64,000 nt of DNA from Erpobdella octoculata (taxonomy: Eukaryota > Annelida > Clitellata > Hirudinida > Erpobdellidae). This document shows, one piece after another, positions 1 through 63,944 of this stretch (its first letter is position 1; the number at the start of each line of letters is the position of its first letter). Location of the stretch: NCBI GenBank assembly GCA_963978895.1, contig OZ022242.1, positions 14,290,907 through 14,354,906 of the forward strand, written 5' to 3'. The notes below the pieces were generated by a model. That model was not told where the DNA came from and made no database searches. It saw only the letters and a list, made by a program, of their open reading frames with translations. The translations under genes were made by a program, and so were the position numbers.

Positions 1-1639
1 AGGAGGTTATTTACATTAAAGCCTTGATACCAGAAGCAAGTGGTAATTGTACCAAAGTTTTCATTTTTCATTAACTTTTGATAAATCAAGACAAGATGGG
101 CATCAAATTGCAATAAATATAAACAAAAACAGTGACTTGCTCCAAAGTTTGCATTCTTGCAGTGGTATTCTAAGCTGAAGCCAGCATTATTATATCAAAC
201 CAGGGTTGGACCGGCACAAGCAGCTGCCTTTTTTAAACATCTAGGATACATAATTATAAAATAATCAAATAACACCAGCGCTATCTTATTCCATGCAAAA
301 TATCAACTCTAAGCGATAAACAAAGTAATTTACGAGCTATCAACAACTCAGAAGACATTATATAAGAAGATGTGGATTACATAAGGATAACTCAGCGTTC
401 CATATATAAAAGTACTAATGAAATTTGAGCTTGTTCGAATTTATTAGGTTTTTTTAGTAAAACTGCAAAAAGTTTTGTTGACAATTGTATATCTAGTGTT
501 TTTTAACTTTCCTATTCAGATTACCTAGTGTATATACTAGAGTGTTTCCCAGATGAAAAAAATAATAGAACACTTAGTCACATTTAAAACACCATGAGCC
601 AGGCACAAAACCATATTTATCTCCTTTATTTTTAAATCGTTTATATTAACACATATCTTCTGTCTGTCTGATTGAACACAAACCTATTTCTCGTCAACCA
701 ATCGATCTAAAACTTGGTCCATAGGCTCGTTAGGAACAAAAATTAATTTTGAGATATTCTCGCTGAAAAAAATTAAAAATTAAAAAGTTAAATGAAATAA
801 AAATTAATTTTGAGATATTCACGCTCAAAAATAAATAAATAAAAAATTATAGAGGATTTTTTTAAAAGCGAAGTTTTTTACGGTTCACTTATTTATTTTC
901 TTGATTACAATTGCTTGTTTGAGAATCAGGTTCAGAAACTGCTAAGAGGTACCGTAACAAAACATCACCAAGTCTCCAAGGTGTAGAATTCTATTAACCT
1001 CAACACTCTAATCTATATTCTTTGATAGGTGAGATGCAATTCGGTAAAAGATGTACAATGGAAAAACTTACAATTATGCCAGTCCCTTTTGAGTTTCAAA
1101 TCCGCAATTTTTTTGTTTCAAAAAATGCAATTAAGGCTTTTGGTCGGCACCTCTTTATAATCTAACATGGTTTCTCTTGCCCTCTAAAACTGTAAAATTC
1201 CAGCAGAAGAAAGTAGTTTTCTAAAAGACTGATTGCTAGCAGTCACACTTAAAATGAATCTAGAGTCTCTTATTTCAAGATTTCTTACGGGATTCGACAA
1301 ACCAAAATTTTTACCATTCGAAAGCAATTTCAGATTTGGTTGAATAAGAATTATTATTTTATTTTTATATCATAGTTATTGAAAAAGAAATGAAAAACTG
1401 AAAAGATGATAGTTTTAAGTTTATATAAAACATTAATGGATAATCTACCAACAGAGAATGAAAAAAACGACTGTGTCGAACAAAAATTAGAACTAAATTC
1501 TATATTCTTGTAATCTACTAAAGCTGAAGAACATTATAAGAATGTGCTTTAAATTGCTCAACAGGATAGAAAACAACAACCATAAACAAACAAACAAAAT
1601 GCAGTATAACTGAACAATCTTTAAATGTATGGGTATTCC
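1..1639. other. AT-rich non-coding DNA, no gene seen
   Basis: No reading frame with protein-like composition is visible. The only structure is a pair of near-identical short copies of a segment containing TTTTGAGATATTC, about 61 bp apart near 738-820. Function unknown. Confidence 0.6.
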
Positions 1640-1865
1640 ATTTTTACAAATTTTCATTTAAGTTACAATCTCTGTTTGTGTGTGTGTGTCTTTTTCTGTA
1701 CGCAAATCTTACAAGTAAAATGTAACCAGTTTTTTGACTAGCTATGAAGCTGAAACTTTCAGCATAGCTTTACATTGGATGATAATACATGAGATTCATA
1801 TACATTTTAATTCAATTAAAAAAAAGGTTTGTGTTGACCAACTCGTTTTTTTCCTTCACTTGTTT
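1640..1865 (+). repeat. Dispersed ~230-bp repeat, family A, copy 1
   Basis: Starts near TTTTTACAAATTTTCATTTA and contains a short (TG)n tract, then CTGTACGCAAATCTTACAAG and AGCTGAAACTTTCAGCATAG, and ends near ACTCGTTTTTTTCC followed by CACTTGTT. The same layout recurs at 5244-5490, 36621-36880, 39879-40078 and, split, at 40082-40122 plus 42386-42560. No coding capacity or terminal inverted repeat is visible, so its class is unknown. Confidence 0.8.
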
Positions 1866-2230
1866 ATGTTTTTTTCTGATATAAAATTAATATAAAAGTT
1901 TAATAAATGAAATTCTCAAGCAGTTCAATAGAAGACAATATATTTATTTAAGTGTTTCAAAACTTTAGAATGCATCCCATATGTTAGAATACGTATACAA
2001 CAAACAGCAAAAAAAGTTAAAGAAATTGAACTTTAGAAATAATGTAAAATTAATTTCAAAAATGGAGTTTAGTAAGGGTTCATATTATTAGAGGTTCACA
2101 AGTGTTTAACGAAATACAAACTTCTATTACAGGTATTGCGGTTTATTTATTCTAGTTGAGTACTTATCGAATTTATCCTCAATAAATTACAAAACCATTT
2201 CAGAAGAACCGTATACAATTACCATTATCG

Positions 2231-2408
<178 letters not shown>

Positions 2409-3559
2409 CATAAGCAGAGGCACCAATCTATTCAAGCTGTGTGCTGTACGCCATTTTGTAAACAAACGTATTGATTTGCTGTTGTCCAGACGGTCGTACA
2501 AATAAAATTGAAAAGTGTAAGCACGTGACAACCAAATAAACGATAATAAGATCAAGATAAAATTCAGAAGCTTAAAAATTAGGCCATGACATGAGAAAAA
2601 GAAATGGACAACAAAACAAAAGTCTGTTGAGAGATCGAGAGAGAAATAAAAAAGAGAGATAAAGAGAGTGAGATAAACACCAAAAATAAAAACAAAATTT
2701 AATATGGTGGACTAAAAGGGATGATAAAATACCTAGCTGTTTTGCATATTAATGAGTCTCGTGCATATGCAAATGAATGCAAGTGTGCTGAAACTGGCGT
2801 TGTTAGATGATAGGTTCAAATGCATTCGTATTCATAAATCAATAATCAGAATAAGTTTATTTCTTACAGTTAAGGAGAAAAAAATTAAATTTGCGCTTCT
2901 GAGATTTAATAATCACTTAAATTAAAAAGAAACACAAATAAATCACTTAAAATATTTCGTCCCAGATTTGGCTATCTGAAGTTTAATATACGACGCAACG
3001 TATTATTTTCTTTCCTATGTCATTTGTTGATCTACTGATCCTGTGTAAAAATAAGACTCTCCATAGTTCATATTTTGACGACCCGATCAGACCCAACCAC
3101 CAAAAAAGTTGACCCGACCCATCGCATAACCTCTCTATTTCGTGACCCAACCCAACTCACTTTGGCATGACCCGACCAGGCGTTACCCACACCTTTCAAA
3201 TTGTAAATCTATATTTTACAATGTTTATTATTTTAACAAAAAAATCCTTGGTATCTCGCTGGTTTTTTATGGACGTTGTTGACATCTATCGCGCAAAATG
3301 ATAAATGTTTCGTGGGAGAGAGTCTTCGCTGTCAATCAAAATTGAACTCATTGTAGTTCTTCTTGTTCGTGGTATTCTCAGCATTCTTCCCATTGTTTTG
3401 GAGTTATCCAAGACAATTTTGTGATTTTTAAATTGCCTTAATCATAAAACAACAACAAAAATTTTAATCCTTTACACTTATCAAGTGTTTTAAAGCTTTA
3501 ATAACTGAATGTCGGAAATACCAAAGTATTTCGGAAATCATAATTTGATCTTTTTTACC
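2409..3559. other. Non-coding, with GACCCGACC-rich patch
   Basis: Mostly AT-rich with no convincing exon. At about 3078-3190 there is a cluster of CCCGACC/CCCAACC motifs that resembles, in reverse complement, the GGCCCGGCC-rich patch at 57340-57620 inside FBXO3. This is probably an old repeat fragment. Confidence 0.5.
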
Positions 3560-10689: not shown

Positions 10690-13074
10690 GTTTTAACTCT
10701 TTGCGAGCTTTCGTCGCCGAAGGTCTTCAGAAGAAGAACCTCTCATTTTTAGCGTTTCGGCCCTTAAACTTCTTGACGCTTTTAAGAGAGAGGTGGGCCC
10801 ACGTCCGTTGGTCAGGCGGACGCCCTTCGGCGAGAAAAATTTCCAAATTCCTAACTTGAAACACGAAAATTCAAAGTTCAGCAGAAAACTGTTCGAAACA
10901 AAACTTGAAATCGCCGGAACGATTATCGCCCAATGTAAACAAGGCTAAACCATTTCGTGTGCGTCTTGGAGCGCTTTCTTTTTTCTATTAGCGAAAATCC
11001 AAAAAGATGCAGCTTCAGCTGTCTGGGAGATCTCTTTGATGGCTCGAGTTTTTTCTCGGTTTGAAAAACCAAGAGCTTTCAGCAGTTTTAACATTGAGCT
11101 GCTAACCAACCCTCGAACGCCAACCTCGACTGCAAAAATTTCAGTCCTGAACCCTTTGACATTCAAATCACATGCTAAATCCCTATATCTCTCCTCTTTG
11201 AAAATATTGCTAGATTCCATGTTACTTTCCCATGGCACAGAGAGTTCAATCAGGAACATTGTCTTGGCCAAGTCAGAATATACAATTATATCCGGCTTTA
11301 AGCCGCTAGATCTCACGGCTTCTGGAAATTTTCTTTCGCCATCCAAATCAGCCGAAACCGACCAATCGTCGGCAGCACCCATCACACATTCAAAGTCTCT
11401 TGTAGATCTGAACCTGTGGAACTTCAGATTGCCTTCTCTCAAAAAGTAGATTTTCCTTTTCTGCTGTATTCCTCTTGTCTTTGCTTTCTTACACGCTTCT
11501 TTGACGAAGTCAAGCAATTTTCGGAGTACTTGGTTATGACGCCAAGTGTACTTCCCGTGTGAAAGTGAAAACGAACAACAGGAAAGAACGTGAATGAGAG
11601 TCTCCGATTGCCCGCATAACATGCACGAATCATCGTCTTTCAACTTCCATCTTCGCAGATTGCTGGATGACGGCAGTTGATCATAAACAGATCTAATCAA
11701 AAAAGACAAACGTAGTGGTGTGTATTGCCAAATGTCTTTCCAAGAAAGTGAACGCTGAACAGTATTTTCCCATGTCGTCCAGTCTCCTTGTTGAGATAAC
11801 TGAACAAACTTAATCATTCTCTGGGACTCGATAGCTTTCTTTCTTTCCTGAATGACCAGACTTGTTCGTTCACTGGTGCTGGCTTTTGACCACCAAATTC
11901 GATGGGTTGACCCGAGACCCCGTTTATCCTGTTGAACTGCCCCAACTCTTTCTGTCCAACGTAAAGAGGCTTCAGCTTCTGCGATCTCCTTTCTGGCTAC
12001 CCATTTCTTTCCGGACTTTACAAGAGGTCCCATCTCCACAATTCTTTGATCCGAAGAGTTATCCAGCATTAGTTGCGTACGGATCTTGTTTATCTTAAAC
12101 TCCTCAACCAAAGACTTCAGTGGCAACCTCAGTTTGGCAGTCTTGCTGTACAAAGCTACCGAAGAAAATCCCGGAGGCAGACCCAACCATTTCCTTGTAA
12201 ATTTATTAATTCTCCTTTCTAGCTTTTCTACCAATGGTAAGCTCATCTCATACATTGATAGAGGCCAAAGCAATCTCGGTAATAGAACAAACTGAAGCAA
12301 CCACAATTTGAACCTGCTCTGGAGTGGGGCCGCATCAATTTTCTTCATATCTTCAAATGCCGATCGAAGAACCTCAGAACACCGTCCAGTGTCGTTAAGC
12401 GAATCGTCATACCACCTTCCCAGGCTCTTAACCGGTTCTTCTCTCAATGTTGGGATCCTGTTGCCAGCAACTGAAAACGTCACGTTGTCGTCGATCTTGC
12501 CTCGTCGCAGAGATAAGCTTCTTGACTTGGTTGCCTTGAAACTCATGCCGCACCATGATAGCAGCCCGCTGAATGCATCAAGAGCCCGTCGCATTGAGAT
12601 ACATCTGTTTAGAACCAAAGTTGTATCATCCATGAAGGCCTTCACCGATGGCATCAAGATACCTTTGCCAACGTAAGCTTCTTCCACGCGAGAACCCACT
12701 GCATTCAGAAGCAGCTGCATCGCTAATATGAAGAGAATGGGTGAAATTGAGCAGCCCATTGCTATACCAACCTCTAACTGGAACCATTCTGTTGAACAGG
12801 AGGACGTAGACAACCTCAATTTGAAATGTCCGAAAAACTGTTGCAACATTTCTATCACAAAATTTGGAACATGATGCGATCTGAGAGTTCTCCACAACAT
12901 TTGGTGACGAACGGCTCCATAAGCATTGGCAAAGTCTAACCAGACAATGTGCAAGCTGAGACGATTTTCTTTAGCTCTTTTCAATGCTTCCCAGATCACT
13001 GACGAATGTTCGATGCATCCTGGTACTTCTGAACAGACCTGTCGATGTAATTGTTTTGAATTACATATACGGTG
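10690..13074 (-). mobile_element. R2-like LINE (restriction-endonuclease type), 5' truncated
   Basis: A non-LTR retrotransposon whose reverse transcriptase is followed by a zinc-knuckle and a restriction-like nuclease. The coding region opens directly out of the (ATGT)n tract at 13075, so the N-terminal part is missing. The 3' untranslated region is about 250 bp and ends at another (ATGT)n tract at 10620-10689. Both ends therefore border the same tetranucleotide, which suggests insertion into that repeat. Confidence 0.8.
10945..13070 (-). CDS. Reverse transcriptase with C-terminal restriction-like endonuclease (truncated N-terminus)
   Basis: Open from the microsatellite edge for about 705 codons with no internal stop. 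An N-terminal PGCIEH segment and VWLDFANAYGAV are reverse-transcriptase palm motifs, GIAMGCSISPILFILAM is the template-grip region, and FMDD replaces the commoner FADD at the catalytic site (both aspartates kept). Near the C-terminus a CMLC...H...C knuckle with WRHNQVL is followed by KPDIIV, IELSVPWE and KEERYRDL, fitting the PD-(D/E)XK-like nuclease of R2/NeSL/Hero-group LINEs. Such proteins nick target DNA and prime cDNA synthesis at the nick. Intact catalytic residues but missing N-terminus: a dead-on-arrival copy, probably recent because the frame is undamaged. Exact clade not resolved. Confidence 0.85.
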
Positions 13075-13237
13075 ATGTATGTATGTATGTATGTTTGTAT
13101 GTATGTATGTATGTATGTATGTATGTATGTATGTATGTATGTATGTATGTATGTATGTATGTATGTATGTATGTATGTATGTATGTATGTATGTATGTAT
13201 GTATGTATGTATGTATGTATGTATGTATGTATGTATG
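13075..13237. repeat. (ATGT)n microsatellite
   Basis: About 40 tetranucleotide units with one TTTG interruption. It adjoins the truncated 5' end of the R2-like LINE; degenerate units continue to about 13292. Confidence 0.97.
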
Positions 13238-13392
13238 CACTCTTATGATTATGTATGTGTATGTATTTATGGATTAATGTATGTATGTTTGTAGAGGGAA
13301 CAGTAATGATGGTGATGAACAAAAAAATAATATTTCTATCGTTTGTTCCTAGCAATTCCGTATAGCTAGTGTAGTGAAAACTGGTATGTTAG

Positions 13393-21991: not shown

Positions 21992-24900
21992 CCGGTTCCC
22001 AGACTAAAAATAGTAAATAATGGGGCTACAGGCTGTTAGGAAAACCGAATTTAAAGTGGGGATAATAATAGTTAAATAGTTATAAACTCCTGTCAAGAGG
22101 TAGATTAATTAATCAATGTTGATGAATCAACTGCAAATATTCACAGTTGTGACAATCGTTAATTAAATATGTATGACTTTCATTATTTATTGAGAAATAT
22201 TTTTTTTAAATCTCGGAATTTTTTTCGAGACTTTATACGAGAACAAAATTTAAGTCCCGCTATTTTATTTCTATACGAGACTTCCCCCACAGGCTGTATG
22301 GTTTTAATAACGATACGGGAAATCCCGTATCGTTTTGAAATCCCGATTGATATCGGGATAATGATTACGGGACGCAGATGCTTAGTCTTAGGAGCACAGT
22401 ATACTCCGTAATGTTGTTGGCCCCCGTTTTGGAAGCATTATGGCTCTAGATGTATGACTAATACACTCGTTTTTTAAACCACTATATTTCTCGAAATATA
22501 GGTCATCTAATAATGTTTTTGTAAATTCTTTTTTCTTTTATTATAAAAACTAATATTACAAAAATAAATTCTTTTTTCAAATTTTATGTGACTTGGGTAG
22601 GCCACTAAGGAGCTAGAGCCCACAAGGGAATGAATTGCCCTCCCCTCCTCTCTGAAAAAATTTAGAGATTTCTGTTGGCAGTAAGTGATAATCTAAAATA
22701 ACCACCCCTAGATATGGTTAATCTCAGTTCCCTACCAAAGATTGATGTCTTCCATGAAGCTGAGCCTGGTATTATTACAGCATTAAATATATAAATCTCT
22801 AACTTACAATTATTACACTACATCAAACACACATGAAAATCAAAAAAAGAAATACTAGCAAGTTGAACAAATGTTGTGGCCTTCATTCTTTTAAATATTT
22901 CATCTTTCGAAAATTTATAATCTTAAAAAATATATTTATAAATGTTAATTGTTATAACGTCAAGTTTGAAAATTCATTTAATTAAAAATAGGTTTTTATT
23001 AAACAATGGAATTTAAATTCAAATAAAATAATTAAATGAATGTAAAATAATCACCAACTTTGCTTGAGTTCTTCAATTTTTTGTAGTTGCTTTGTTAAAC
23101 TTGCTCCTATTGTAGTATATTATAAATATTAATAAATTTATTATAATATAATTAAATAGAAAGTTAAAAAATCAAATTAATTAGAACAAAACAATAAAAC
23201 AGCTTTGGACAAAAAAGTTTTAGAAGCTTAATTGGTTTATATCTACCATACATAGGGTTTAAACTGCTAAATTGATTTATATCTATCATATACAGGTTGT
23301 AAACTGCTAAATTGATTTAAATCTAACAAACACAGAGTTTGTACTGCTAAATTGATGGATGTATATCACACACATGGAACGGTTAAGACTGCTAAATTGA
23401 TGGGTTTATCCATGCAGGCAGAGCAATGTGTTTATTCTCTAAAATCTGGACTGCAACACTGGCATATCATTCCAATCAATCAATCAATCAATCAATCAAT
23501 TATTTATATAGCGCTATTTCCGCAGTGTTCAATAGCGCTCAGTCGTGAACTTAGTAAACAGATATGTTTTAAGTCCACGAAGGAAAACTGTGAGAGAAGT
23601 AGAGTTAGTAAGAGAAGAAGGAAGAGAGTTCCAGAGATAGGGACCAGAGTAGGAGAAAGAGCGTTTAGCAAAAGAATGCTTAATAGTGAAGATGCGAGAG
23701 TGATTACGAGAAGAAGAACGAAGACCAGACTTAGGAGGGATATGTATTAAGTTAGTTAAGTAGAGAGGAGAAAGGCAATTTTTTATTTTGTACATTATTA
23801 AGCAGATTTTAAAAATCACCCTATATCTGAGAGGAAGCCAATGGAGAAGAAGAAGAGATGGAGAGATGTGAGAGGAGTAGGAGGTGCGAGAAACTAAGCG
23901 AGCAGCCGAGTTGAAGGCTTTAGAGAGAGGATAGAGGGTAGTGTCAGGAAGACCATAGTATAGAGAATTGCAGTAGTCAATTCGAGACAGGACAAGAGAA
24001 GAGACTAGAAGTTGCAGAGAAGGGTCATCCAGAAGTGGACGAAGCTGCTTAATACGGCAAAGATGAAAGTAGCAGGATTTAGTAACAGAAGTAATTTGAG
24101 GGGTTAGCGACAAGTTAGAGTCAAAGAGAAAACCTAAGCTACGAATCAAGGGAGAAGGAGAAATGGAAAGAGAAGATGGTGGTGGCAAAACCAAAGGAAG
24201 AGGATTTAGGGATTTAGAGGACTTGTTGAAATAGATTAGTTCAAACTTGTCAGGATTAAGTTTAAGACACATAGAAGAACTCCAGGATATAATAGATTGA
24301 AGGCAGGCAGCTATTTTATTAAGAACAGACTCAAGAGAAGAGTTAGAGAAAGTAGAATAGACATAAGAGTCATCAGCATACATTTGGCTATTGAGAGAGT
24401 GAGAAGATATAATATGAGGAAGTTCAGAAGTATAGAGAATAAACAGTAAAGGACCAAGAATAGACCCTTGGGGGACACCGTAGCTCAAAGTTACAGGAGT
24501 AGATTTAGAAGAATCAATAGAAACATAGGAATATCTACCAGATAGATAAGATTTAATCCACCGGAGAGCATCGTTAGTTATATTAAAAGATTTATCAAGT
24601 ACATCCCACAACAGTGAGTGATCAACTGTATCAAATGCAGATGAAAAATCAAGACAAAGAAGAAGGGTAGAGAGGCCAGAGTCAGAAGAAACAATAAGGT
24701 CATTATGAAGCTTAAGTAGAGCAGTTTCAGTAGTGGCCAGGTCTGAAGCCAGATTGAGACGAGGGAAGAAGTGAGAAAGCAGTTAGATAAGCACTTATTT
24801 GCTCATACGCAACTCTTTCCATAATTTTAGAGATAAAGGATAGGTTAGAGACAGGCCTATAGCTAGATAAAGAAGAAGGATCAAGAGAGGCATTTTTAAT

Positions 24901-27900
24901 AGTAGGGATAATAAAAGAGGACTTAAGAACAGAGGGAAACACAGATGTAGATAAAGAGAGATTAATTAAATCAAGTAAAATTGGATAAAGAACAGAAGAA
25001 AGCTCTTTAAAGATAGTAGTAGGAATGAGATCCAAAGAGCAAGTAGAAGAAGACATAGAGTTAATAAGTTTAGTAAGATAGTCAAGTGTAATAGGAGAGA
25101 AAAAAGTAAAAGTTTCAGTAGAGAATTTAGAAAAAATAGGGGTTTTACTATTGTTAGAAGATCTGATGCTTTCAATTTTCGTGGTAAGAAAATTATGATA
25201 GTCATCAGGAGAAAAAGAAGGAGGAGGAGATTTTTTATTAAGGAGTTTAGAAAGAGAAGACCACCTATTCCTCGAGCTAGAAGCAAGAACAATAGATTTT
25301 CTCAAAAAGGAAGAATGCTTAGTAAAGATGAGGTTATGGTATTGTTTGAGATGGTATTGCCACTCATACCAAGAACCCTTAGACAATTTAGAACGATAAG
25401 CTCGCTCGGCTTTACGTGCAGATTGCTTCAAGAGAACACAATCACGATCAAACCAAGGAGCTTTTTTAGAAAAGAGTCGAAACTTAAACGTCTCAAAAGG
25501 AACCAAAGTATCCAGTATGGATGAAATCGTCAGATTGAGATTGTCCATAAAGGAATCAACATCAGTGAAAGAAGAAGAAGAAAACCCAGAGGTGAGAAAT
25601 AAATTTGAGAATTGAATATTATCAAATCTAGACCAACACCTTTTAGTGACTGAAGTAAGATTAATTAAAGGTTGAGATAGAGGTAAGGTGAAAGAAATAA
25701 AGTAGTGATCAGTAAAGTGAAGATTAACAGGTGAAAGATTGCTTATATTAGAGAAAAGAGGAGAAATAATAAGATCCAATGTGTTACCCCGATTATGAGT
25801 CGGAAAGTCACAATGCTGAAAGAAGTTAAAAGTAGATAAGATTTCAAGATTCCAGGTAGTTAGATCAACAAAAACTTGTTTCATGTAAATCTGCAACTCT
25901 GATGACTGTGTTCCCACGACGTGCCAAGCATGGTTGCTCCATTCTTCTCTGATTCAATCATAAATTTATTAGTGATGTTGCATAGTCATGAGCCTCGTGC
26001 GAGATGTACAAGCAGATATGGTTATTCTTGATGAAATGGGAAGCCTGTGTAATTGACACATGGCAGGCATATTATAATCGCAATGAGTAATATTTTTGAC
26101 AATTCCTAAAGTGGTCAGCAGATGAAGAGTGACATAATAGTTAATTCTGAATGTGATTGCCCAACTTAAATAATGTTGAACTAATTACAACTTGAAGATA
26201 CTTTTTGAAAAATTTATAATATGGAAATGTCAATTTTTCAGGGAGTTTCTAAAATTCATAAAAAATTATAACTTTTGAGTTATCAGTGAAATGAATCATG
26301 CTGATTTATTATAGAAGTTAGAACATATTAGTCCAGGAGAATTAAAAAAAAGCTGGCATAATTGGAACAAAAGCAGTTTGATATTTTGTTTTGTAGGTAT
26401 ATGTGTTAGCAACAATTAGTTAAAAATCCACCCTTCCAACTCATCGTTTAAAAAAATTACAGACGATTTTCAAAATCGGCCTTAAAATCGGTAAATTAAT
26501 TGAATATGCCAGCTCTTTTAATCCAATTAGATGAAAATAACTAAAGTTTAAGCTGAATGCTTTATTGTTACTTATTGCATGATATACAAACATTAAAAAT
26601 TATCAAAAAAAAAAAAAAAAAAAAAACTACAAATGAACTGATTTATGGAGCCGTTTTTCCATAAAATATACAATATATCAGCTCTTAAAATCCATTTAAA
26701 TAAAAATAACTCAATCTATAGATGAAAACTACCTAATACAAAATATACATAAGTTAAAATTTGTCTCGCAACATTATATACGGATACAAATAAACTACTT
26801 TATTGTGCCGTTTTTGACTAAATGTGCAAAATAAATTAAGATTAATATGAAAATTGCTTGTTACATACTATTTAATATACACATATTAAAAAGCATACAT
26901 ATAAATCCATAAATAATTTCCAATTTCAACATACAATAAAAAGAACAAACAGAAAAACAACAAAAACACCTCAAAATAACAATTTCTTTATTTCCCGCCC
27001 TGTGTCCTTTGTCTGTGTGCCTATATCCCTTTTGTTTGGTTATATAAAGTTTGTATGGTAGGTCCAGTAGTACAATTTCTTTAAAATAATGAATAAGAAT
27101 TTCAGTTAGACCACTGTAAATAAAGCCTCACGTTAAATTTGCATCCCGATCGGAGACGCTCAGATCATCAATATCAGAAGTAGTCAAAAACTCCATTTTC
27201 AATATTGATTCCAAAAGCAAAGCAAACAAAGCTGACTCTACTAAAAAGTGGCCGCGTAGTGCTCTAGCCACTGCCTTCCCTGTCATCATGTGAGTTATGG
27301 CTATGGGTCCATAACAGCACTGCAGCGCCTCTGTCAAACCTGAGCCGGCCATGACATGACCAATGCTGCCCAAATAATTCATCAAGACATGAAACCCACC
27401 TAGACGACATACTATGTTCAGTTTGGATGAATGCACAATATCAACAGCCTTTAACCACAGCGGCTGATCGAAAGTCACACAAGCCGTTGGAATGTTGAGC
27501 TTTTCAGCCTGGCGTTCTATGAAAGTTAACGTGGAAAAAATACAAGACATGTCATTAGGATTCAAATCAATAATCGGAAGCATCCTTATGTCTGATGATG
27601 ATCTGAAATCTCCGTCTGGCTTACAAGCATGTTCCATAAAGCCAGACCAATTTGGCCTTTGCTGATCTTCATCTAAGCACAAGATACCGATTTTCCAGGC
27701 AAGTTCCAAGTTTAAAGAAGGAGGCAACACAGAAGGAAAATTTAATTGAGAGATGGGCTTGAAAGACATCAATGATAATGATGACTTGTCGGGGAATGTG
27801 TATCCCAATATAGGAATACCTCGGTTGTTCACAACACAACTGGATTTTAGGCGTGACAATCGGGGTACAGGTGATTCAGCAAAGTGTCCTGACCCTAATC

Positions 27901-29875
27901 GATTACACGGAGTAGACATTGATATGATGCCCATACCGTGAAAGGTACCACTTCCATCTAAAGTGATAACGTTGTGGTCAAGATTATCACCAGACCATTG
28001 CGTAAAACATTGAGGAAAAGACTGAGGAGTATCAGGGGAGTCATTCTGAACCACTGATTGTTTAAAAAGTTTAACTTCATCATATGAAATTGAAAATCCC
28101 AACCGTGACAGCAAATCAAGCAGCCATCTAGATCCAAAGGCGTGATCTAAACTAACTCCAACGCCAAACAAAATTGGAGAAATAAGAGATCTTTGTCTTG
28201 CCCCCTGCACAATAGAATGACATATGGAAACTTGTTTTATTTCATTACAAACAATATTTTCTATTAAGATTTTCAACAAACTAGGAATCCACCTTTTGGC
28301 ATTTTCAATATTTGAGAAATCATCAGTTCCTGGATATGTTTCATTTGAGGACATTTCCCTTATTTGAGCTCTTATCAATTTTGCTGCTGCCACTATGATA
28401 CGCTCACTCTCATCTTCTATGCTACTCTTTTTTTCATCATACCATTGCTTAGTTATAATGTGAGACGCCATGTTACGGAAGCAAATAACATTTTTCCGAC
28501 CACAAACTTCGGCAAAAAATATGTGCTCGGCGTAGCGTTCTTCCAGCTTTCGTTTTATATGTTTTAATGAATACACTTCACCATCTTCCGATAATTCTTG
28601 CATTTTAATTTGTAATTCAGCTATTGTATAAATTCCTTGATCTTCTTCTTATAACCAGTCACACAGTTTTTCAAAAGTAATTAACATGTCGTTATCTGGA
28701 TGTCGACCTGGCTGGTTTCGGCCAGCGGTATTATCTCCGACATGTGACGATCTACATTTTTGGAACACAGAAAGACACACTCTGTGGTAACGAGCTTCTT
28801 CAGCAGGTAAGTCATTGCATGTATTTAACCTACCAAGAACTTCTACACTCCATGCATCATTTCTTTTGTGGCAAGTTTTAATTATAGTTTCTCTGAATTT
28901 CAATGTCATCACAGTACTTGATTCTTCTTTTAAATATTTTCTACCGTCTCCAAGATCTATTTTTCCACACAAAAAACAATGTTGCTTCCAATTGAAAGTG
29001 TCGACAGACGATCGTAAAATTCTCTTGATCAACACCAACACCTTCTGCATGCTGCTCATTCTTTCGTTGCAATTGATCGAAACTTCTCTCCGGCAATGAT
29101 CATGAACATTAGCTACATTTGGTTTATTTAACAGATACTCTGTTAACTGTTCATCACCACGTAAAACGCTGAATTGACATAACGTTTCAATACCTTTAAC
29201 ACCTAGTGTAACCATCTTGACTGTATCACAGACGTTGTCGGAACGGAATTCAGTTCGACAAATTAAACATACCATTTCATTTAGTTCACCCATTTCGAAG
29301 AAAAACAATAAAAACTCCAAAAAATAGATGTTTTACAAAATACTAACTTAGAAATTCGATGTTTTACGACAATTTACGAAAATGCTAACTTATCGCTCAC
29401 TACGGTAAATCTCTTACAAAAAAGCGTCAAAAAACCAATTTCCTATTTGACGATTTCAACCGATTTTTGCAGGAAGATTCATAAACGTATTACAAACAAT
29501 ATATCCAAAAATCAGCTTGATGCGAATTTTGTCTAGGTACAACAAGGAAAAATTTTAATTCTCCTGGTCTATATCCCAGCTCTGTTTAATACTTTAGGCC
29601 CTAGCCTAATCAACTTGAACTACCTGACATCCGCAAAATAATTTAGCAATCTAAACTACATTTCACCGTTTAAGTAAAAAAAAGTCACCAGTATCGATGG
29701 TAGGTTTGACATCTTTATACTTTGGATTGATTGGCACCTTCTTCTGCATAGGCTAAATTTTAAAAAACATATATAACAATATATTAAACATTAAACATAA
29801 ATAAAAATATTCTGTTAATGAACACAGAAAATTGAAATGATTTACGTCAATTTTATGAGGCTTGCGACTCGTCAT
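18606..29875 (-). CDS. CEP41: Centrosomal/ciliary protein CEP41 (rhodanese domain)
   Basis: Minus-strand exons: 29875-29846, 29752-29689, 23106-23059, 22921-22860, 20788-20743, 20472-20258, 20079-19874, 19616-19549, 19470-19356, 19262-19023, 18733-18606; a little over 400 residues. The N-terminus runs MTSRKPHKID, VPINPKYKD, TIDTGASLTKQLQKIEELKQ, then KDEIFKRMKATTF. The rhodanese domain follows: PYLLLDVREKDDYDSCHI, ALSYPKAILSR, GKIIVLYDDDEKMAS, LVQRGYDNIFMLSGGLK, LFPEGLIVGTIPAY. The C-terminal tail is Ser-rich. CEP41 acts at the centrosome and cilium base and is needed for axonemal tubulin glutamylation. Two weak points: the fourth exon appears to end at a GC donor (CTT|GCTAGT), and the fifth and sixth exons do not join in phase, so a small exon between 20742 and 20473 is probably missed. 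Introns 2 and 4 are packed with transposons. Confidence 0.92.
18919..18962. repeat. (TAA)n microsatellite in a CEP41 intron
   Basis: About 14 TAA units with one CAA interruption, in the last intron of CEP41. Confidence 0.9.
21018..22378. mobile_element. Putative inverted-repeat element in CEP41 intron 4
   Basis: TCTGCGTCCCGTTAT at 21018 is matched in inverted orientation by ACGGGACGCAGA at 22367-22378. Both inner flanks are rich in ACGATACGA and CGGGA/TCCCG motifs, including the near-palindrome CGATACGGGA/TCCCGTATCG at 22311-22335. No target duplication is clear and no ORF is present, so the class is unknown. Another element is nested at 21811-21989. Confidence 0.5.
21811..21989 (+). mobile_element. 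Single end of a Mutator-like element, nested
   Basis: About 179 bp matching the left end and inner sequence of the 38853-39702 element (ATATTTCTAAATGG, GTCGACTAGCAGCCTAAGAG, AATGTGGCACTAAAAA, CTGGTTTTATATATGTTAT), ending in a (TA)n run. It is bracketed by perfect 11-bp direct repeats TGCCGGTTCCC (21800-21810 and 21990-22000). The opposite inverted end is absent, so it is a solo end or a rearranged copy. Confidence 0.65.
23473..25990 (-). mobile_element. L2-type LINE, 5' truncated, in CEP41 intron 2
   Basis: Minus strand, the same direction as CEP41. The 3' end carries AGCGCTATATAAATAATTGA followed by (TTGA)n, the expected short microsatellite tail of the L2 group. The 5' edge falls inside the endonuclease domain near 25920-25990. 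The next entry describes the coding part. Confidence 0.85.
23529..25917 (-). pseudogene. L2-type LINE ORF2 (endonuclease end plus reverse transcriptase), frameshifted
   Basis: The 24727-25917 part holds the end of the apurinic-type endonuclease (DFPTHNRGNTLDLIIS, FTDHYF) and the start of the reverse transcriptase (SYRPVSNLSFISKIMERV). The 23529-24726 part continues with LLCLDFSSAFDTVDH, YGVPQGSILGPLLFILY, MYADDSYVY and the C-terminal LLLLHWLPLRYRVIFKICL typical of this clade. The two parts are in different frames, with the break near 24736 just after SGFRPGH, so a small indel has killed the copy. Catalytic aspartates remain. Confidence 0.85.
26329..29571 (-). mobile_element. 3.2 kb inverted-repeat DNA transposon of unassigned class
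   Basis: Ends are TAGTCCAGGAGAATTAAAA (left) and, in reverse complement, TAGACCAGGAGAATTAAAA (right): 18 of 19 identical. The flanks are TAT on each side, compatible with a 3-bp duplication; alternatively the outer TA could itself be the duplicated target. The only sizeable coding content is the 730-codon minus-strand frame at 27128-29320. Left of it are a poly-A run (26607-26629) and two diverged copies of a segment containing CAGCTCTT and AAAATAACT (near 26510 and 26680). Academ-type transposons are described with 3-4 bp duplications and nuclease-like proteins, so that is one possible home, but I see no diagnostic domain. It sits in CEP41 intron 2. Confidence 0.7.
27128..29320 (-). pseudogene. 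Transposon-borne uncharacterised protein, one in-frame stop
   Basis: A single frame of 730 codons, broken only by TAA at 28649-28651. The 15 codons between this stop and the next ATG are open and in phase, so it is one gene with one nonsense change. The N-terminal part has paired cysteines (CLICRTEF, CFLCGK, then TCHKRNDAW and DLPAEEARYHRVC), suggesting zinc binding. The second part contains HIKRKLEERYAEHIFF, GRKNVICFRNMASHII, LDGSGTFHGMGIISMSTP, LPIIDLNPNDMSCI and GKAVARALRGHFLVESA. I recognise these as hallmarks of a widespread, multi-copy, uncharacterised animal family. Family members I recall run on beyond the GHFLVESA block, so this copy may also lack its C-terminal region. Enzymatic role unknown. 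Confidence 0.7.
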
Positions 29876-35282: not shown

Positions 35283-36546
35283 ATGAATATCAGTTCTCTC
35301 TCTAACGCGACTTCACCTCATCCAAATGAAACAACTATAATTGCTGTATTTCAAACAAGGACGATGCCACTCATGAAAACACCTTACACAATTATTGGGA
35401 CTTACTCTGTCGTGGCCAACAGCTTAGTATTTTCTGTCATTTTGGCTTTCCAGAGCATGCTTTACAGGCAGAGTACTACAGCAAGTAGTACTTACCACAT
35501 CTGTTGGCAGGTTTCATTTATAATTTTAAATATTAAAATGTTTTTAGAACAATTTCAATATAAAAATTGTATCGTTAAGCTACTAAGTTCAAATATCATT
35601 CAAACAGGCTTTTGTTGATGCAGCAGTTGGATTTCTTCTGCTTACCAATACGTGGATTGAAGATGATGGCTCATCATGGCTGTCATCTGGAAACATTTGG
35701 CACGAATTTGTCTGTCGTATATGGTACAGCAAAGTCATTCTGTCTGCTGCTATGGACGTGTCTGTTCTTTCCGTACTCATGTTGAACTTTGAAAGATATC
35801 TGGCTATAGTCCATCCATTATTTCACAGAAAAAAGTTTGCGCAAAACAGAAACTTTTCCAAAATAATGATTGGTGTGACCGTCTTTATGATTCTCGGGTA
35901 CAGATTTCATTTCGGAATACTAACTTGTAGAATTCTAAGTGACGGTAGATGTGCAGCTTTCATAGAAAGCGTGAGTCACTCGTATCAAATGTTTATGGGA
36001 GTCATGACATTTTTTATCGATTACGTCGTTCCGTTTACGGTCACAGTTTTTTTCTACATCAACATGGCTTTCATGCTGCATAGTAAAATTTTGCCAGGAA
36101 AAAAGTTTGTGTTTGAAGAAAATTCTACCGCACATAATATTTCTCCAAGGAGTCAGTCGGACTTCATCAAAAACAATTCTAGCCAAACCGTGGCCACTGT
36201 AGATACAGTGAAAAAAGAAACCAATTTAAAACACAAATCAGAAACCAACACTACAATGATTCGAGCGAGAAATAATGTTTTAAAAACTTCTGCATTTCTG
36301 TCAGTATCTTTTGTGGTTTGTTGGTCGTGCAATCAGTTTTATCGTATTTTGTACTACTTCGGTGTTATACCACTGGGAGGATTAATCATCTTTTACTATT
36401 TCTCTGTTAACATGGTTTTTCTCAACAGCTGCATAAACCCTTCTATTTATTGTATTAAATATAAACCATTTCAAAAGTGTGTGAAAATAATCTTTGCAAA
36501 AATTAAGAAGTTCTATGGAGAAATTAAAGGAACTAGTCAGTTTTAG
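35283..36546 (+). CDS. Rhodopsin-type (class A) G-protein-coupled receptor
   Basis: Two exons, 35283-35510 and 35608-36546, joined in phase 0 across a 97-bp intron (CAG|GTTTCA ... AAACAG|GCT); 388 residues. The short extracellular N-terminus has three N-glycosylation sequons (Asn2, Asn8, Asn15). TM1 contains GTYSVVANSLVF. TM2 begins AFVDAAVGFLLL with the conserved Asp. TM3 starts after Cys112 and ends NFERYLAIVHP, with ERY in place of DRY. TM5 has the conserved Pro (DYVVPFTVTVFF). TM6 reads VVCWSCNQF, lacking the usual Pro of CWxP. TM7 has LNSCINPSIYCIKY (NPxxY). Intracellular loop 3 is about 70 residues, polar and basic. Ligand cannot be inferred; sequence features are generic for peptide/orphan receptors. 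Confidence 0.9.
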
Positions 36547-45613: not shown

Positions 45614-46782
45614 TTGTACATCGGATGCCAGAACAGATATGGGAATCTAGAGGAATTCTTCCAACACGAAAACCATGCCTGCCTTCCTGCTCTCTCAGAT
45701 GACGTTGGTATCCCGTTGGGGGTCAAGAGTGATCTTCTTGCCTGTCTTGAAGAGCTCAGTCAGTCCAAGATTGAGACTCCGCCCACGAGCTGCATTGTAC
45801 TCGACGGAGCAGTTATCGTCCAGATGCTGAAGCCAGCTACAGTCAAAAGCTTCAATGAGTATGCGCAGCAGATCTTCTTGCCCTACATACTGTCGATGTT
45901 TCAGCAAGCCACGCGACTCGATCTGGTGTCGGACCGGTACAATGCAGACTCTCTGAAAGGTACTGTAAGAGCCAAGAAAGGGAAAGTGGTCAGAAGACGG
46001 GTAGTGGAAACTGGTCCAGCTTCCTCAGAATCGACGACAATAAGACAAATCTGTTCAGTTTCCTGTCCGGTGCCCTCCACGACTTATTCCAGCGTACAGA
46101 GAAACAGCTGGTCATTACGGATGGGGATGCTGTCATGAGCAAGCCATTGCTCCTCGATACCGCAGGTCTACCCCATGCAATCAAGAAAAAGCGGACACCC
46201 ACATGATGCTGCATGCGGCTCACGCTGCTCCCGCTGGCCACAGCAAGATCACTATCCGCACTGTTGAAACAATTTCTCTGGCACACACCCTCAAAGAGAA
46301 CGATGAAGTGTGGGTATCTTTTGGGACGGGCAAGGCTTTTCTTTTCTTTGCAGCACATGAGATGGCGCTGGTTCTGGGCCCAGAGAAAGCACAAGCCCTG
46401 CCAATGTTTCATTCTTTGACAAGGTGTGACACGATCTCCTGCTTTGCCGGACATGGCAAGAGGACGGCATGGGCAGTGTGGACAACTTTTCCTGCGCTTA
46501 CACAGACCCTCGTTGACCTCTCCACTGCACCAATACACGTTGATGGAAATCACATGCACACCATTGAGAGGTTTGTCATCCTGCTCTATGACAGGACAAG
46601 TAACTCAACCGATGTCGACAAGGTACGCTGCTGTGTACCAGGGCGGGCATGTCTGGAGGCAGACTGTGGCTCCTTCACCAGAATTGCCCTCTCCAACTGA
46701 CTGGGGGTGGATCAAGATCAGCGACCATATGTACGAGCCCCACTGGACAACGCTTCCTGAAGCAACCTTGGATGTGACGTAA
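45614..46782 (+). pseudogene. Decayed multi-copy nuclease-like (PIN-type?) gene
   Basis: Protein similarity is carried across three frames: YGNLEEFFQHENHACLPALS, CIVLDGAVIVQMLKP and RLDLVSDRYNADSLKGT in one (to about 46020); a stretch near 46020-46140 in a second; and HAAHAAPAGHSKITIRTVET, VWVSFGTGKAFLFFAAHEMA, ALPMFHSLTRCDTISCFAGH and HTIERFVILLYDRTS in a third. The end (GHVWRQTV, GWIKISDHMYEPHWTTLPEA) is back in another frame. I recognise this order from a common uncharacterised animal family whose full members end in a Cys-rich tail. That tail is absent because a LINE fragment begins at about 46783. At least two frameshifts make it non-functional. The PIN-nuclease idea rests on pattern memory, not on a search. 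Confidence 0.65.
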
Positions 46783-48199: not shown

Positions 48200-51154
48200 T
48201 CAGTATCCATGCCTGGATAGCGCTACTTTAAAAGATGTGGTAGTCTCAGATGCTACAGTGTCATCGTCCAAGTCATTCCATGTGTTTACCACTCTAGAAC
48301 TAAAAAAAGCCTTTTTTAAAGTCTTTTCTTGTTTTTTAAAAAGCTTGAATCTATGTCCCCTAGTGCTTTGAATCGGTGGTTGTTCGAAAAACATTGCTGG
48401 TGTTAAATCCTCTTTTCCTGTTATTATCTTGTAGGCTTCGATCAAGTCACCCCTACTTCTCCTTTTCTCTAGAGTTGTTAAGCCGCATTGTTTTAATCTT
48501 TCTTCGTAAGGTAACTGGCTTAAATGCTTAATCAACTTTGTAGCCCTCCTTTGTACCTTCTCCAACACTACGATGTCCTTTTTTAAAACAGGGCTCCAAG
48601 CTTGTACACAATATTCTAGATGTGGTCTTACCAAACATTTGTATAGTCTGATAATTATTTCCTGGTTTCGACTTATTATTGTTCTCTTGACCAATCCTAA
48701 GATCTTATTGGCTCGCTTTGCTGCTTCCGCACACTGTCTTGATGGTTTGCCGCTATTGTGTACTACAACTCCCAGATCTCTTTCCTCTTCAGATGTCTTC
48801 AACAATATTCCTCCCATCTCATACTGAAACTCTTGATTTCTCTTACCCATGTGCATCACTGAGCATTTATCTACGTTGAACATCATTTGCCAGTCTAGGG
48901 ACCATTGGTATATTTTTGCAAGATCTTTCCTTAAAATGTCGGCATCCAGCTCACACTCTACTTTCATGGATAACTTTGTGTCATCAGCAAATTTCGAGAC
49001 CTTTGAACAAGTCGCTAAATCAAGGTCGTTAATGAACAGAACAAATAGTAATGGTCCCAAAACGGATCCTTGCGGTACACCACTTTTTATGCTTTTCCAC
49101 TCCGAGTATTTCCCTTTAATTCCCACTTTTTGTCTTCTGTCAGCTAGCCATTCTTTGATCCATCCTCGAATATTACCTCCTATTCCAGCCGCTTCTATTT
49201 TTCTCATCAACCGTGTATGTGGTACTTTGTCGAAGGCTTTGGCAAAATCCAGATAGACTATGTCTACAGGGGATCCTTTATCTAAGTGGGTATAAATATT
49301 TTCAAAACAATCTAGCAAATTTGTTAGACATGATCGCCTTTGTACGAATCCATGTTGGCTGTTTATCAAAATGCTGTGGTGTCTAATGTGATTCATTAAT
49401 TCGAGCTGAATGATTTTTTCCATGACTTTGCAAATAATACACGTGAGACTTACTGGACGATAGTTACTTGCCTCAGATCTGCTACCTTTTTTAAAGAGTG
49501 GTACAATGATTGCATCTTTCCAATCACGAGGAATTTCTCCAGTTTTCAAGGACCTGTTCATTATTTCTGCTAACACATCGCTTATTTCGTGTCTTACTTC
49601 TCTTAAAAACATGGGATGTAATGCATCGATACCCGGACTTTTATCTGTTTTTAGGTCCTTTAAGTGTCTTTCAACGTTCTCTTTTGTGATAACCACATCA
49701 GTCATTTTCTCGTCTATTTTCCCCTTAAACATGTTCACAGGTTCCGGTATGTTTTCTATGTCTTCTTCAGTAAAAACCGTACAAAAATAATTATTTAACA
49801 TTTCAGCTACCTCTTCATCGTTTTCAACCACTTCGCCTAACTCATTTTTTAACGGCCCCACTAGGTCTTTTCGTTTTTGCTTACTTCGGACATACGCATA
49901 GAAACTTTTGCTGTCATTTTTTATATTATCCGTCAGCTTTTTCTCATAATCAATTATGGCTCTTTTAATGCTTTTTTTTGTCTCATTTCTTTTCTTGACA
50001 TATTTGTCGCGCAATTGTTGCAGTATTATTTCTTTGCCTGTCTCATTATTACTTGCAGCTGCAATTTCATTTCCATTTCGAAGTGTTTGGAACCTTTTCC
50101 ATGCTTTGATTTTTGCTCTTCTTATTTTTAAGACTTCCTTTGTTATCCATGGCTGTTTCCTGACAAATTTTTTCTTAATGGGTATGATTTCTTGAATGAC
50201 CTCCTCCATGCTCTTTTTGAATAACATCCAGCTGTCATTTACATCCACCGATTCAATTTTTCTCATTATATTCATGTCTCTTATTTTGCTTCTTACTTTG
50301 TTATAATTTGCTTTAAAAAAATTGTAGCTAATATGAGAATTTATTTTCATGTTACAATCCTGCAGTATTATTTCAAATCTTACAATTTGGTGGTCACTAG
50401 AATGAAAAGGCTCTCCTACAGAGATGTTCTCTATAATGTTCTCATCAGAAGTTATTACCAAATCTAATATATTTTTGTTTCTTGTTGGGTTCATGACATG
50501 TTGATGTAAAAATTCCCCATTAATACAATCCAAGAATTTATTATCTTGATGTCTTTCTCCTTCCATGTTTATCCAGTTTATATGATAATTGAAATCTCCC
50601 ATTATCAATACAGATTCCTGGCTAACCCTACCCAATAATTCACACAAACCATTATCCACACTTTCATCTACATTTGGGGGTCTGTAGCAAACACCTATTA
50701 GTAAACTGTTTTTAGCTCCATGCTGTATATCACACCAAAGACTTTCTTTAAACTTATCGCTTGATATATCTGTTCTTTCCACTGCCTTTATTTCATTTTT
50801 AACATATAAAATTATACCACCTGCACCATGCCCCTTATTATTTTGATTTTGCCTGTCTTTCCTAAACATAGTGTACCCATTAATTGCTAGTTCAATATCT
50901 AATATATCTTCCTTTGCCCATGATTCTGTTATACCAATGATGTCAGGTTTTTCTAATTCCACATAAACTTCCAATGCACATCTTTTTTCTTTGCTTACTA
51001 TACTTCTTACATTGGCATAGAAACATTTCAATATTGTTCTTTTTAGTTTAGTTACACTATTGAAACTCTGCCTATTTATTGCTTTTATTATTGCACCTTC
51101 TTGAGCTTTACTATTCTCATATTCCCTGGCACACCCTTCACCTTGTATATCCAT
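48200..51154 (-). CDS. CR1-type LINE ORF2: endonuclease and reverse transcriptase
   Basis: 984 uninterrupted codons. N-terminal apurinic-type endonuclease (about residues 40-280): FYANVRS, PDIIGITESWAKEDI, GGIILYVKN, GVCYRPPN, IMGDFNYHINW, NILDLVIT and SSDHQIVRFEI, with the expected Asn, Glu, Asp and His positions. Reverse transcriptase (about 500-780): PRDWKDAIIVPLFKKG, NYRPVSLT, VDIVYLDFAKAFDKVPH, SGVPQGSVLGPLLFVLFIND and the catalytic SKFADDTKLS. The C-terminal domain contains YCVQAWSP and STRGHRFKLFKKQ, typical of CR1. The first ATG overlaps ORF1 by 67 bp in another frame. All visible catalytic residues are intact, so the copy could be active. Confidence 0.92.
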   Translation of the reverse strand: MDIQGEGCAREYENSKAQEGAIIKAINRQSFNSVTKLKRTILKCFYANVRSIVSKEKRCALEVYVELEKPDIIGITESWAKEDILDIELAINGYTMFRKDRQNQNNKGHGAGGIILYVKNEIKAVERTDISSDKFKESLWCDIQHGAKNSLLIGVCYRPPNVDESVDNGLCELLGRVSQESVLIMGDFNYHINWINMEGERHQDNKFLDCINGEFLHQHVMNPTRNKNILDLVITSDENIIENISVGEPFHSSDHQIVRFEIILQDCNMKINSHISYNFFKANYNKVRSKIRDMNIMRKIESVDVNDSWMLFKKSMEEVIQEIIPIKKKFVRKQPWITKEVLKIRRAKIKAWKRFQTLRNGNEIAAASNNETGKEIILQQLRDKYVKKRNETKKSIKRAIIDYEKKLTDNIKNDSKSFYAYVRSKQKRKDLVGPLKNELGEVVENDEEVAEMLNNYFCTVFTEEDIENIPEPVNMFKGKIDEKMTDVVITKENVERHLKDLKTDKSPGIDALHPMFLREVRHEISDVLAEIMNRSLKTGEIPRDWKDAIIVPLFKKGSRSEASNYRPVSLTCIICKVMEKIIQLELMNHIRHHSILINSQHGFVQRRSCLTNLLDCFENIYTHLDKGSPVDIVYLDFAKAFDKVPHTRLMRKIEAAGIGGNIRGWIKEWLADRRQKVGIKGKYSEWKSIKSGVPQGSVLGPLLFVLFINDLDLATCSKVSKFADDTKLSMKVECELDADILRKDLAKIYQWSLDWQMMFNVDKCSVMHMGKRNQEFQYEMGGILLKTSEEERDLGVVVHNSGKPSRQCAEAAKRANKILGLVKRTIISRNQEIIIRLYKCLVRPHLEYCVQAWSPVLKKDIVVLEKVQRRATKLIKHLSQLPYEERLKQCGLTTLEKRRSRGDLIEAYKIITGKEDLTPAMFFEQPPIQSTRGHRFKLFKKQEKTLKKAFFSSRVVNTWNDLDDDTVASETTTSFKVALSRHGY

Positions 51155-51957
51155 TCCCCCGACTGATCATTGTTCTGTTTTTCTTTTGCTTCTATAACAA
51201 GTTTCTTGCATTGTTCTCTCTCTATTCTAGTCATATCGTGGGTCACAGAGACCCTTCTAAACTTTTCCTCTGCATTCTTGAGTTTAAAAAGTGACTCTAA
51301 TATCAAATTTTTCTTTGTTGCTTCCTTCAGTTCAACAAGTAGAGGTCTGTCTTTTTCAGATTCCCTGCCAAGTCTGATCACTTTTTTTATATCTAAACTT
51401 TCACAAGATACTTCAAGTACTTTAAATAGTGACAACACAGATTTTCTATCTTCGGTTCTTTTCTGATCTTCTTTATCTGCAGCACTCTCTGCCATCCTAT
51501 GAATTATAATGTTGTTCCTTCTAAGTTCATGCTGGTCTGTATTTTTTATCTTATTTTCCACTTTATTTACTTTTTCTTTTATAGCCTTTATTTCTTTTTT
51601 GGTCCATTCCTCTTCTTGGATTGAAACGTTAGTTTCCCTGGTCCCATTATTGTTGGCTGCTGATGATTTGGAAACAAGCAACTCAGCAAACTTTTCTTCA
51701 ATCTTTTGATATGCTTTCTTTTCACATACCTCCAGCTGTTTTTCAACGAGTTTTTTCCCTTCCTCTGCCTTTTCTGCAGATGTCTTTAATAGCAATTTCT
51801 CGACCTCTTTCTCCAACTTGTCAATTCTCAAACAATTGTTGCATACGGAATCTATGAAGTTTTCACCGCTTCCATACATACTACAGTTAATGCACTTAAC
51901 CATTTCCTTGCTTTTGAGAACCATATTTGTAAGATAAATGCAAAATAAAACTTCCAC
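51088..51957 (-). CDS. CR1-type LINE ORF1 (nucleic-acid-binding protein)
   Basis: 289 codons; the true start may be the second or third Met (MVLKSKE or MVKCINC). Near the N-terminus CINC ... VCNNC could bind zinc. It is followed by a Glu/Lys-rich coiled coil (KLEKEVEKLLLKTSAEKAEE, then KEIKAIKEKVNKVENKIK). The C-terminal half (RRNNIIIHRMAES, VIRLGRESEKDRPLLVELKE, VSVTHDMTRIEREQCKKL) has the layout of the RNA-binding domain of LINE ORF1 chaperones. It coats element RNA before reverse transcription. Its end overlaps ORF2 by 67 bp, implying re-initiation or frameshifting. Confidence 0.85.
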   Translation of the reverse strand: MEVLFCIYLTNMVLKSKEMVKCINCSMYGSGENFIDSVCNNCLRIDKLEKEVEKLLLKTSAEKAEEGKKLVEKQLEVCEKKAYQKIEEKFAELLVSKSSAANNNGTRETNVSIQEEEWTKKEIKAIKEKVNKVENKIKNTDQHELRRNNIIIHRMAESAADKEDQKRTEDRKSVLSLFKVLEVSCESLDIKKVIRLGRESEKDRPLLVELKEATKKNLILESLFKLKNAEEKFRRVSVTHDMTRIEREQCKKLVIEAKEKQNNDQSGEWIYKVKGVPGNMRIVKLKKVQ

Positions 51958-52316
51958 TACTCAAAATAAGATAAGAAAAAGTATATTGACTTATCTTTCC
52001 GAATAGAAAACCTCTGAGCGATAATATGTGAGAGACCGCACGCCGCTTGCCAACAACAAGATGTGTTGTTTTGCCAACTAAACATTTTAACAAATTTTGA
52101 TTTTTTTTAATTTTCAGCCAATTAAAAATTAAACTTTAAAAAAAAGTTCACTATTTATGAAAAACTACTTTTAGTTTTTGGCGGGGACAGCACTTTATTA
52201 CTCTGTTTTTATTTTCTTTTGCTATTTATTTGTAACTTATATAACATATAACAATACTAGGAAGAGACCAGATTTTGATACAATTTTTTGGTTTAGTTTA
52301 AACTTAGCTTATTCTT

Positions 52317-62584: not shown

Positions 62585-62940
62585 GATGTGAGGCGACGAG
62601 CCAGGCAAAAGTAGAACAGAAGAGTTGTGTTCAAAATATAAACTATATGACTATATATGAATATTAACTAATACATAATAGATGGATTAGTAACAACAAG
62701 GTAATCAGATAAATATTTGTATTTAGATCTAGGTACCAGATAGATACTAGTTTTTAAATGAGGATGTGAGGCGACGAGCCAGGCAAAAGTAGAACAGAAG
62801 AGTTGTGTTCAAAATATAAACTATATGACTATATATGAATATTAACTAATACATAATAGATGGATTAGTAACAACAAGGTAATCAGATAAATATTTGTAT
62901 TTAGATCTAGGTACCAGATAGATACTAGTTTTTAAATGAG
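62585..62940. repeat. Perfect tandem duplication, 2 x 178 bp
   Basis: The unit starting GATGTGAGGCGACGAGCC at 62585 recurs at 62763 with no differences that I can see, followed by GATGT of a third start. It lies in the LINE's 3' untranslated region. Confidence 0.93.
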
Positions 62941-62978
62941 GATGTCACAGAAGGAGTAATAATAGAGCAATCAAATAT

Positions 62979-63944
62979 CTATTTATATGTGAGAAAGTTT
63001 GATAGGTTGGCTTCCGCTACGAGACATTTAAACCTACTGAGAGTGGTTGAACTGACAATATCGCTAGGCAATTGGTTCCATATATTAATAATACGATTAG
63101 TATAGAAAAATTTGGTAACATCAACTCTATTAAAGACAGATTTTAGCTTGAACTGGTGACCCCTAGTGGAATGATACATGGAGAACTGAAAACTATGTTT
63201 TAAGTCGGAATCAATAAAACCGTTCAAAAAGCTGTAGCACAAACAAAGATCACTGATGAGTCTTCGGTGTTCAAGTGATGGGAGATTGAGAGTTTTGAGA
63301 CTCACCGCATACGGAAGGTTCTTGAGAGCCGGGATCGCCTTGGTAAATCTTTTTTGAATTCTTTCGATATCGTCAATAAGATATCGGTGATGAGGATTCC
63401 ACACCTGCAAGCAATACTCCAGAAGAGGTCGAACATATGTGCAAAAGGCTTGCTTAAGCAAATCTGGATCTTTAGATGTAAATGATTTAATGATGAGACG
63501 CGATCTCACAGACGCAACATGAACGATATTTGCCACGTGATATTTGAAACTCAGGCTAGCATCCACAATCACTCCTAGGTCTCTGATATGATCAACGTTC
63601 TTTAGTTGGTAAGAGTCAATGGTGTAGATGGGAGATTTAAGTTTTGCACCTGCGGGACCAAAAATAGAGAGAACAAGACATTTTTCCTGTGCCAAGTTCA
63701 ACTGCCAGTCTTTGCTCCATACCAGCAAGTGGTCAATTGCCTTCTGTAAGTTGTTGGCATTAGGCTGGACAGGTGCATACAGTTTGATGTCATCGGCAAA
63801 TGGTTTGACTGAGATCGATCCCAACTCCACACTATCTGTAACATCGTTAATATAGATCAGGAACAGAGTTGGACCGAGAACACTGCCTTGCGGAACCCCG
63901 CTTGTAACAGCTCTTGGCTCAGAGCTCTTGGCTTTGTCTAACTA
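62979..63944 (-). CDS. LINE reverse transcriptase, C-terminal part
   Basis: Open frame with TSGVPQGSVLGPTLFLIYIN, KPFADDIKLYAPVQ (catalytic Asp pair intact), QKCLVLSIFGP-like thumb region and RDLGVIVDASLSFKYH. The C-terminal domain contains YVRPLLEYCLQVWNPH and HSTRGHQFKLKS. This is the CR1/L2-group layout, related to but clearly different from the 48200-51154 protein. The endonuclease and the first half of the transcriptase are absent, so it cannot act alone. Confidence 0.85.

Follow-up and report, generated by a model that had tools for sequence, protein, structure and literature searches.

The Academ superfamily of DNA transposons is said to go back to Kapitonov and Jurka in 2010. For the AcademX lineage the reference is Kojima (2020, Mob DNA 11:15), as cited by PMC10045372 and PMC10799480, and in the outline given by PMC10045372 AcademX elements have a nuclease and target-site duplications (TSDs) of 3-4 bp, whereas AcademH elements have a helicase and duplications of 9-10 bp. 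According to the passages of PMC10294476 that deal with the superfamily, bivalve Academ elements have a mean length of 5,565 bp, a few Academ open reading frames are present in Helobdella and, among molluscs, Academ is almost confined to bivalves. The element described here lies at positions 26329-29571 of a 64,000-nt stretch of the Erpobdella octoculata genome (contig OZ022242.1; this whole stretch is termed the window). Judged by the published marks of the superfamily, it is most likely a non-autonomous element that arose through internal deletion from a cut-and-paste DNA transposon of the AcademX lineage of Academ and has spread recently; it belongs to a new family.

The element measures 3,243 bp. 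Its 19-bp ends, TAGTCCAGGAGAATTAAAA on the left and the complementary TAGACCAGGAGAATTAAAA on the right, pair at 18 of 19 positions and TAT is present on either side, as had been reported in an earlier annotation made from the nucleotide letters, here called the sequence-only reading. The TAGWCC...GGWCTA pair is unique to the element in the window when a spacing of 150-8,000 bp, identical 3-bp flanks and pairing of 11 or more of 16 end bases are required. The genome assembly (386 Mb, 94 contigs) was searched with the element; scoring extended to 40 of the 504 first-look candidates, thus the match counts are lower bounds. There are at least 53 genome matches, and at least 26 of these, the window copy among them, cover the query from 1 to 3243 with 94-100% identity. 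Because the element recurs genome-wide, the match between its inverted ends is not attributable to chance.

Flanking sequences were scored in 24 copies that have both ends, of which 22 stand singly and two form a tandem pair; three other whole-length matches are outside this set. The target duplication is exactly 3 bp in 20 of the 22 single copies and 4 bp (TTTA) in L036, and L046 has none. The duplicated triplets are diverse (TAT, TCC, TGG, TAA, GAA, GTA and others), thus no target preference is evident. Frames within the main subfamily diverge by approximately 0.3%, three duplicate rows (L051, L052 and L057) included, and this family (family A) is recently spread. Copies with the same ends and 3-bp flanking repeats were what the sequence-only reading had looked to for support of its proposal that the protein family is transposon-encoded; these copies, together with intact autonomous relatives, bear the proposal out.

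The intact relatives form family B, which consists of five copies (L009-L013) of 5,594 bp each with the ends TAGACCGATAG and TAGTCCGGCTG, all five flanked by 3-bp duplications (TTA, AAG, TGA, CGA and TTA). Ends of the form TAGWCCAGG are common to these elements. Copies L010, L011 and L012 are identical, L009 has one difference, in a poly-T tract, and L013 has two, one of which creates a stop. The frame is 1,514 codons long (1,496 from the first ATG) and is unbroken in four of the five copies. The near identity of copies at separate places suggests recent movement. Since full-length copies that are unbroken and nearly identical lie at several sites, the role of an XPG/FEN1-type nuclease in a cut-and-paste transposase becomes testable.

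Structure prediction for the full protein shows a DDE core of RNase H-like fold that contains a helical insertion, joined to a nuclease of the XPG/FEN1 type and a Cys-rich tail; a DDE or PIN/XPG-type nuclease in full-length members had been suggested as a point to check, and the prediction is positive for both. A pattern search finds the tail, which is CXC-like, in 47 of 55 long relatives. One profile retrieves 636 proteins at E<=0.001 (the best 120 of 636 were listed), and a sister clade comprises 798 proteins (the best 120 of 798 were listed). The database names of the relatives are hypothetical, uncharacterized or Tesmin/TSO1-like CXC protein, so that the description of the family as uncharacterised holds. 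The proteins are uncharacterised, yet the class of transposon is already known, if little studied. The family and its sister clade take in hundreds of such proteins, all of animal origin wherever a source is given, and reading them as Academ transposases would remove them from the unexplained expanded gene families. The sister clade, which is part of the same superfamily, has also left a relic of its nuclease tail in the window: a frame at 46044-46700 (plus strand) with RCDTISCFAGHGKRTAW, whose best phmmer match is to P0269 (1.3e-51) and which matches 25 of the 120 sister-clade proteins compared and 16 of the 212 from the window element's own clade.

The locus agrees with AcademX in several respects. 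Duplications of 3 or 4 bp flank 21 of 22 single copies of family A, all five copies of family B and the copies L017 and L018 of a third family, C. The predicted structure has a DDE/RNase H-type transposase and an XPG-type nuclease joined within the same protein, and the full length, 5,594 bp in five of five family B copies, is close to the bivalve mean of 5,565 bp given in the relevant part of PMC10294476. AcademX is reported from annelids and bivalves, and one relative, P0052, is a Helobdella protein, which fits the Academ occurrence reported there. The window copy differs from these elements in its size of 3.2 kb, the result of internal deletion, and the Cys-rich tail of the full protein may be a further difference. 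Another relative, P0077, is a limpet protein, although the same portion of PMC10294476 has molluscan Academ nearly restricted to bivalves. AcademH, the other reported lineage of the superfamily, differs: in place of the helicase and the 9-10 bp duplications of the PMC10045372 outline there are an XPG-type nuclease and 3 bp, and Pfam scans run on 12 long relatives, which covered the proteins themselves and not neighbouring genes, found no helicase family.

No Pfam family scored above cut-off in scans of family members. The sole recurrent match, below cut-off, is DUF6589 (PF20231), with values of 8.1e-05 for P0019 and 1.2e-05 for P0090; in a set of 18 members it was seen in 2, and the database's precomputed column does enter it for P0090. 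This weak match is a point of likeness to AcademH insofar as fungal DUF6589 proteins are AcademH transposases, which is a guess on our part. The 18-member profile had no match among PDB sequences at E<=10, RAG1, Transib, hAT (Hermes) and P element proteins included. What the family has in common with these is an RNase H core interrupted by an all-helical segment ahead of the final acidic residue, and the likeness is one of fold only. Duplications are 8 bp for hAT, 8 bp for P and 5 bp for Transib, and families A and B have 3 bp; moreover, we know of no RAG1, Transib, hAT or P element transposase with an XPG-type domain.

The absence of Pfam families above cut-off, the lone DUF6589 match and the lack of a PDB sequence match could also be expected if the elements formed a separate, unnamed superfamily whose DDE core and XPG-type nuclease resemble those of Academ through convergence or remote relationship. 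This is unlikely. Taken together, the DDE core, XPG-type nuclease, 3-bp duplication, size of roughly 5.6 kb and presence in Helobdella fit what the cited papers report of Academ and AcademX. The suggestion in the sequence-only reading of a class that might lack a name, or have no more than a loose tie to Academ, was not borne out. To our knowledge, no other eukaryotic superfamily combines a DDE core, an XPG-type nuclease, 3-bp duplications and a length of about 5.6 kb.

The gene of the window element is on the minus strand. Its frame amounts to 227 + 506 codons with an in-frame TAA between them; from the ATG at 29293, 214 codons lead to this TAA, beyond which the 506-codon frame continues to 27128 (Table 1). 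The 730-codon frame previously noted is therefore not intact in the window copy, but as an ATG frame of at least 728 codons it is present in 12 of the 24 copies examined. The frame of the window copy is 30 nt shorter than that of intact copies (2,136 vs 2,166 nt). Its N-terminal Cys/His region putatively binds zinc. The 506-codon part carries the first two candidate catalytic aspartates (in SGDNLDH and TFDQP) and is without the catalytic glutamate, the XPG-type nuclease and the Cys-rich tail. Aligned with family B, an intact short copy matches as far as B residue 709, and the glutamate motif starts at residue 861. Because the frame ends ahead of the catalytic glutamate, and is without the nuclease, the truncated protein would be unable to catalyse transposition alone.

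Comparison with longer copies points to how the element arose. Parent-derived sequence in the window frame stops at ...DIDDL (27159), and in the main short form this is followed by SVSDRDANLT. The copies L025/L028 and L022 have other endings, and all three ending types, as well as L016, retain the N-terminal part of the gene. L016 is 3,693 bp long with related ends and the TSD TAG, and its protein extends beyond the last catalytic residue. Window positions 27159-29571 and 26329-26985 align to either side of it, the latter with 97.0% identity to L016 element positions 3693-3047. L014 is a fragment of the parent gene without ends that continues to the natural stop, and is 99.3% identical to the short form over 603 bp and 98.0% identical to L016 over 1,207 bp. 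Since the additional part of L014 carries the parent gene on through the nuclease and Cys-rich tail, the window element is, by these alignments, an internal-deletion derivative of a longer parent. Thus the earlier suggestion of a deleted member is upheld by L016, by the complete C-terminus in L014 and by an intact related family. Several internal deletions from one parent, with both ends kept and apparent movement in trans, resemble the Ac/Ds-type deletion series, although Ac/Ds is of another superfamily with another duplication length (8 bp for hAT).

Family C, which was searched for with equal 3-bp flanks as a requirement, is represented by L017 939-4217 (C7) and L018 931-4203 (C10), elements of 3.28 kb with the TSDs CTT and ACA. 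Of the transposase it retains just the C-terminal half, whereas the window family has the N-terminal one; in family B numbering, the two break points are approximately 20 residues apart. A working split transposase composed of the two halves was considered and rated unlikely: the half-frame of family C has no evident start, a microsatellite-like stretch lying just ahead of it, and over the part present in both its identity to L016 is about 50%.

The long ATG frames in 12 of 24 copies, and the N-terminal gene part common to the three ending types and L016, raise the question of whether the truncated frame is retained for a working protein, e.g., a trans-acting repressor that binds the ends without cutting. 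Such a role is improbable. Selection on the truncated frame was not detected: singleton changes are 48 nonsynonymous, 19 synonymous and 2 stop (18.2 synonymous expected, p 0.79), and shared variants are 34:19:1 (14.2 synonymous expected, p 0.16). Changes in the main subfamily, in the same order, are 21:10:2 and 16:6:1. The frame changes thus look neutral, although copies this similar leave the test with little power. The intact frames can be explained by the recency of the copies, given their low divergence, and family C retains the opposite half. That an ordinary multi-copy host gene was captured in a terminal-inverted-repeat element, as the database names of the relatives might suggest, is hardly credible and is already contradicted by the predicted transposase core, by three families with different ends that all hold the whole or part of the gene inside TAGWCC ends and 3-bp duplications, and by the five places at which family B carries it, unbroken at four.

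For a non-autonomous AcademX derivative, we infer that mobilisation takes place in trans. A full-length transposase from another copy would bind the ends and excise the element, which would insert at varied targets with a 3-bp stagger. At the cut ends, the XPG-type nuclease may trim a flap, a hairpin or the second strand. The truncated protein, with its two aspartates, could not perform these steps alone.

A possible clue is the junction CCTGGACTAGTCCAGG, found at two places in the genome (0 for the control pattern), where two head-to-tail elements have a single TA in common. It reads CCTGGAC-TA-GTCCAGG, with one shared TA in place of two. One case, L054 (C5:634223-640790), is a complete tandem pair with identical copies and a 3-bp ACT repeat on the outer flanks, and in the other (C7:14410846) the second copy is partial. 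Because both junctions hold one TA and not two, it might be proposed, as a speculative and rather doubtful model, that the two nucleases share the double-strand break: the DDE core would cut the transferred strand at the tip, and the XPG-type nuclease the opposite strand at a point 2 nt inside, so that self-complementary 3′ TA overhangs remain. However, an identical junction would result if blunt ends were joined through microhomology at that TA, and two cases cannot decide between them. Tn7 divides strand cutting between TnsB and TnsA; if the model is true, the present enzyme would be a eukaryotic counterpart in which the two nucleases are fused in one protein.

Table 1. Features of the element and its flanks (window coordinates).
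Feature	Position	Strand	Basis
Left target-site duplication TAT, 3 bp	26326..26328		Sequence; 21/22 single copies with a 3-bp (20) or 4-bp (1) repeat
Left terminal inverted repeat, 19 bp	26329..26347	+	Sequence, family copies
Non-coding 3′ region of element	26348..26985		Gene on minus strand; comparison with L016
173 bp at deletion point; codes last ten codons (SVSDRDANLT) and stop	26986..27158		Matches neither L016 nor L014
506-codon frame, remainder of transposase N-terminal half	27128..28648	-	Frame and parent comparison
In-frame TAA breaking the gene in the window copy	28649..28651	-	Sequence
Gene start, ATG 29291-29293, 214 codons; N-terminal Cys/His region	28652..29293	-	Sequence
Right terminal inverted repeat, 19 bp	29553..29571	-	Sequence, family copies
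Right target-site duplication TAT, 3 bp	29572..29574		Sequence

Elsewhere in the window, a non-LTR retrotransposon is present at 48200-51960 (minus strand), with a 988-codon endonuclease/reverse transcriptase frame preceded by a 290-codon frame. More reverse-transcriptase frames are found at 10945-13242, 23529-25953 and 62979-63941 (minus strand); the first of these, at 10945-13242, includes a zf-RVT domain and begins with a long translated microsatellite. A 319-codon frame at 35587-36546 (plus strand) encodes a rhodopsin-family 7-transmembrane receptor (Pfam 7tm_1, 5.8e-18) and is probably a host gene. Tandem repeats are located at 57676-58473 (five copies of 157 bp) and at 62585-62945 (two exact copies of 178 bp).
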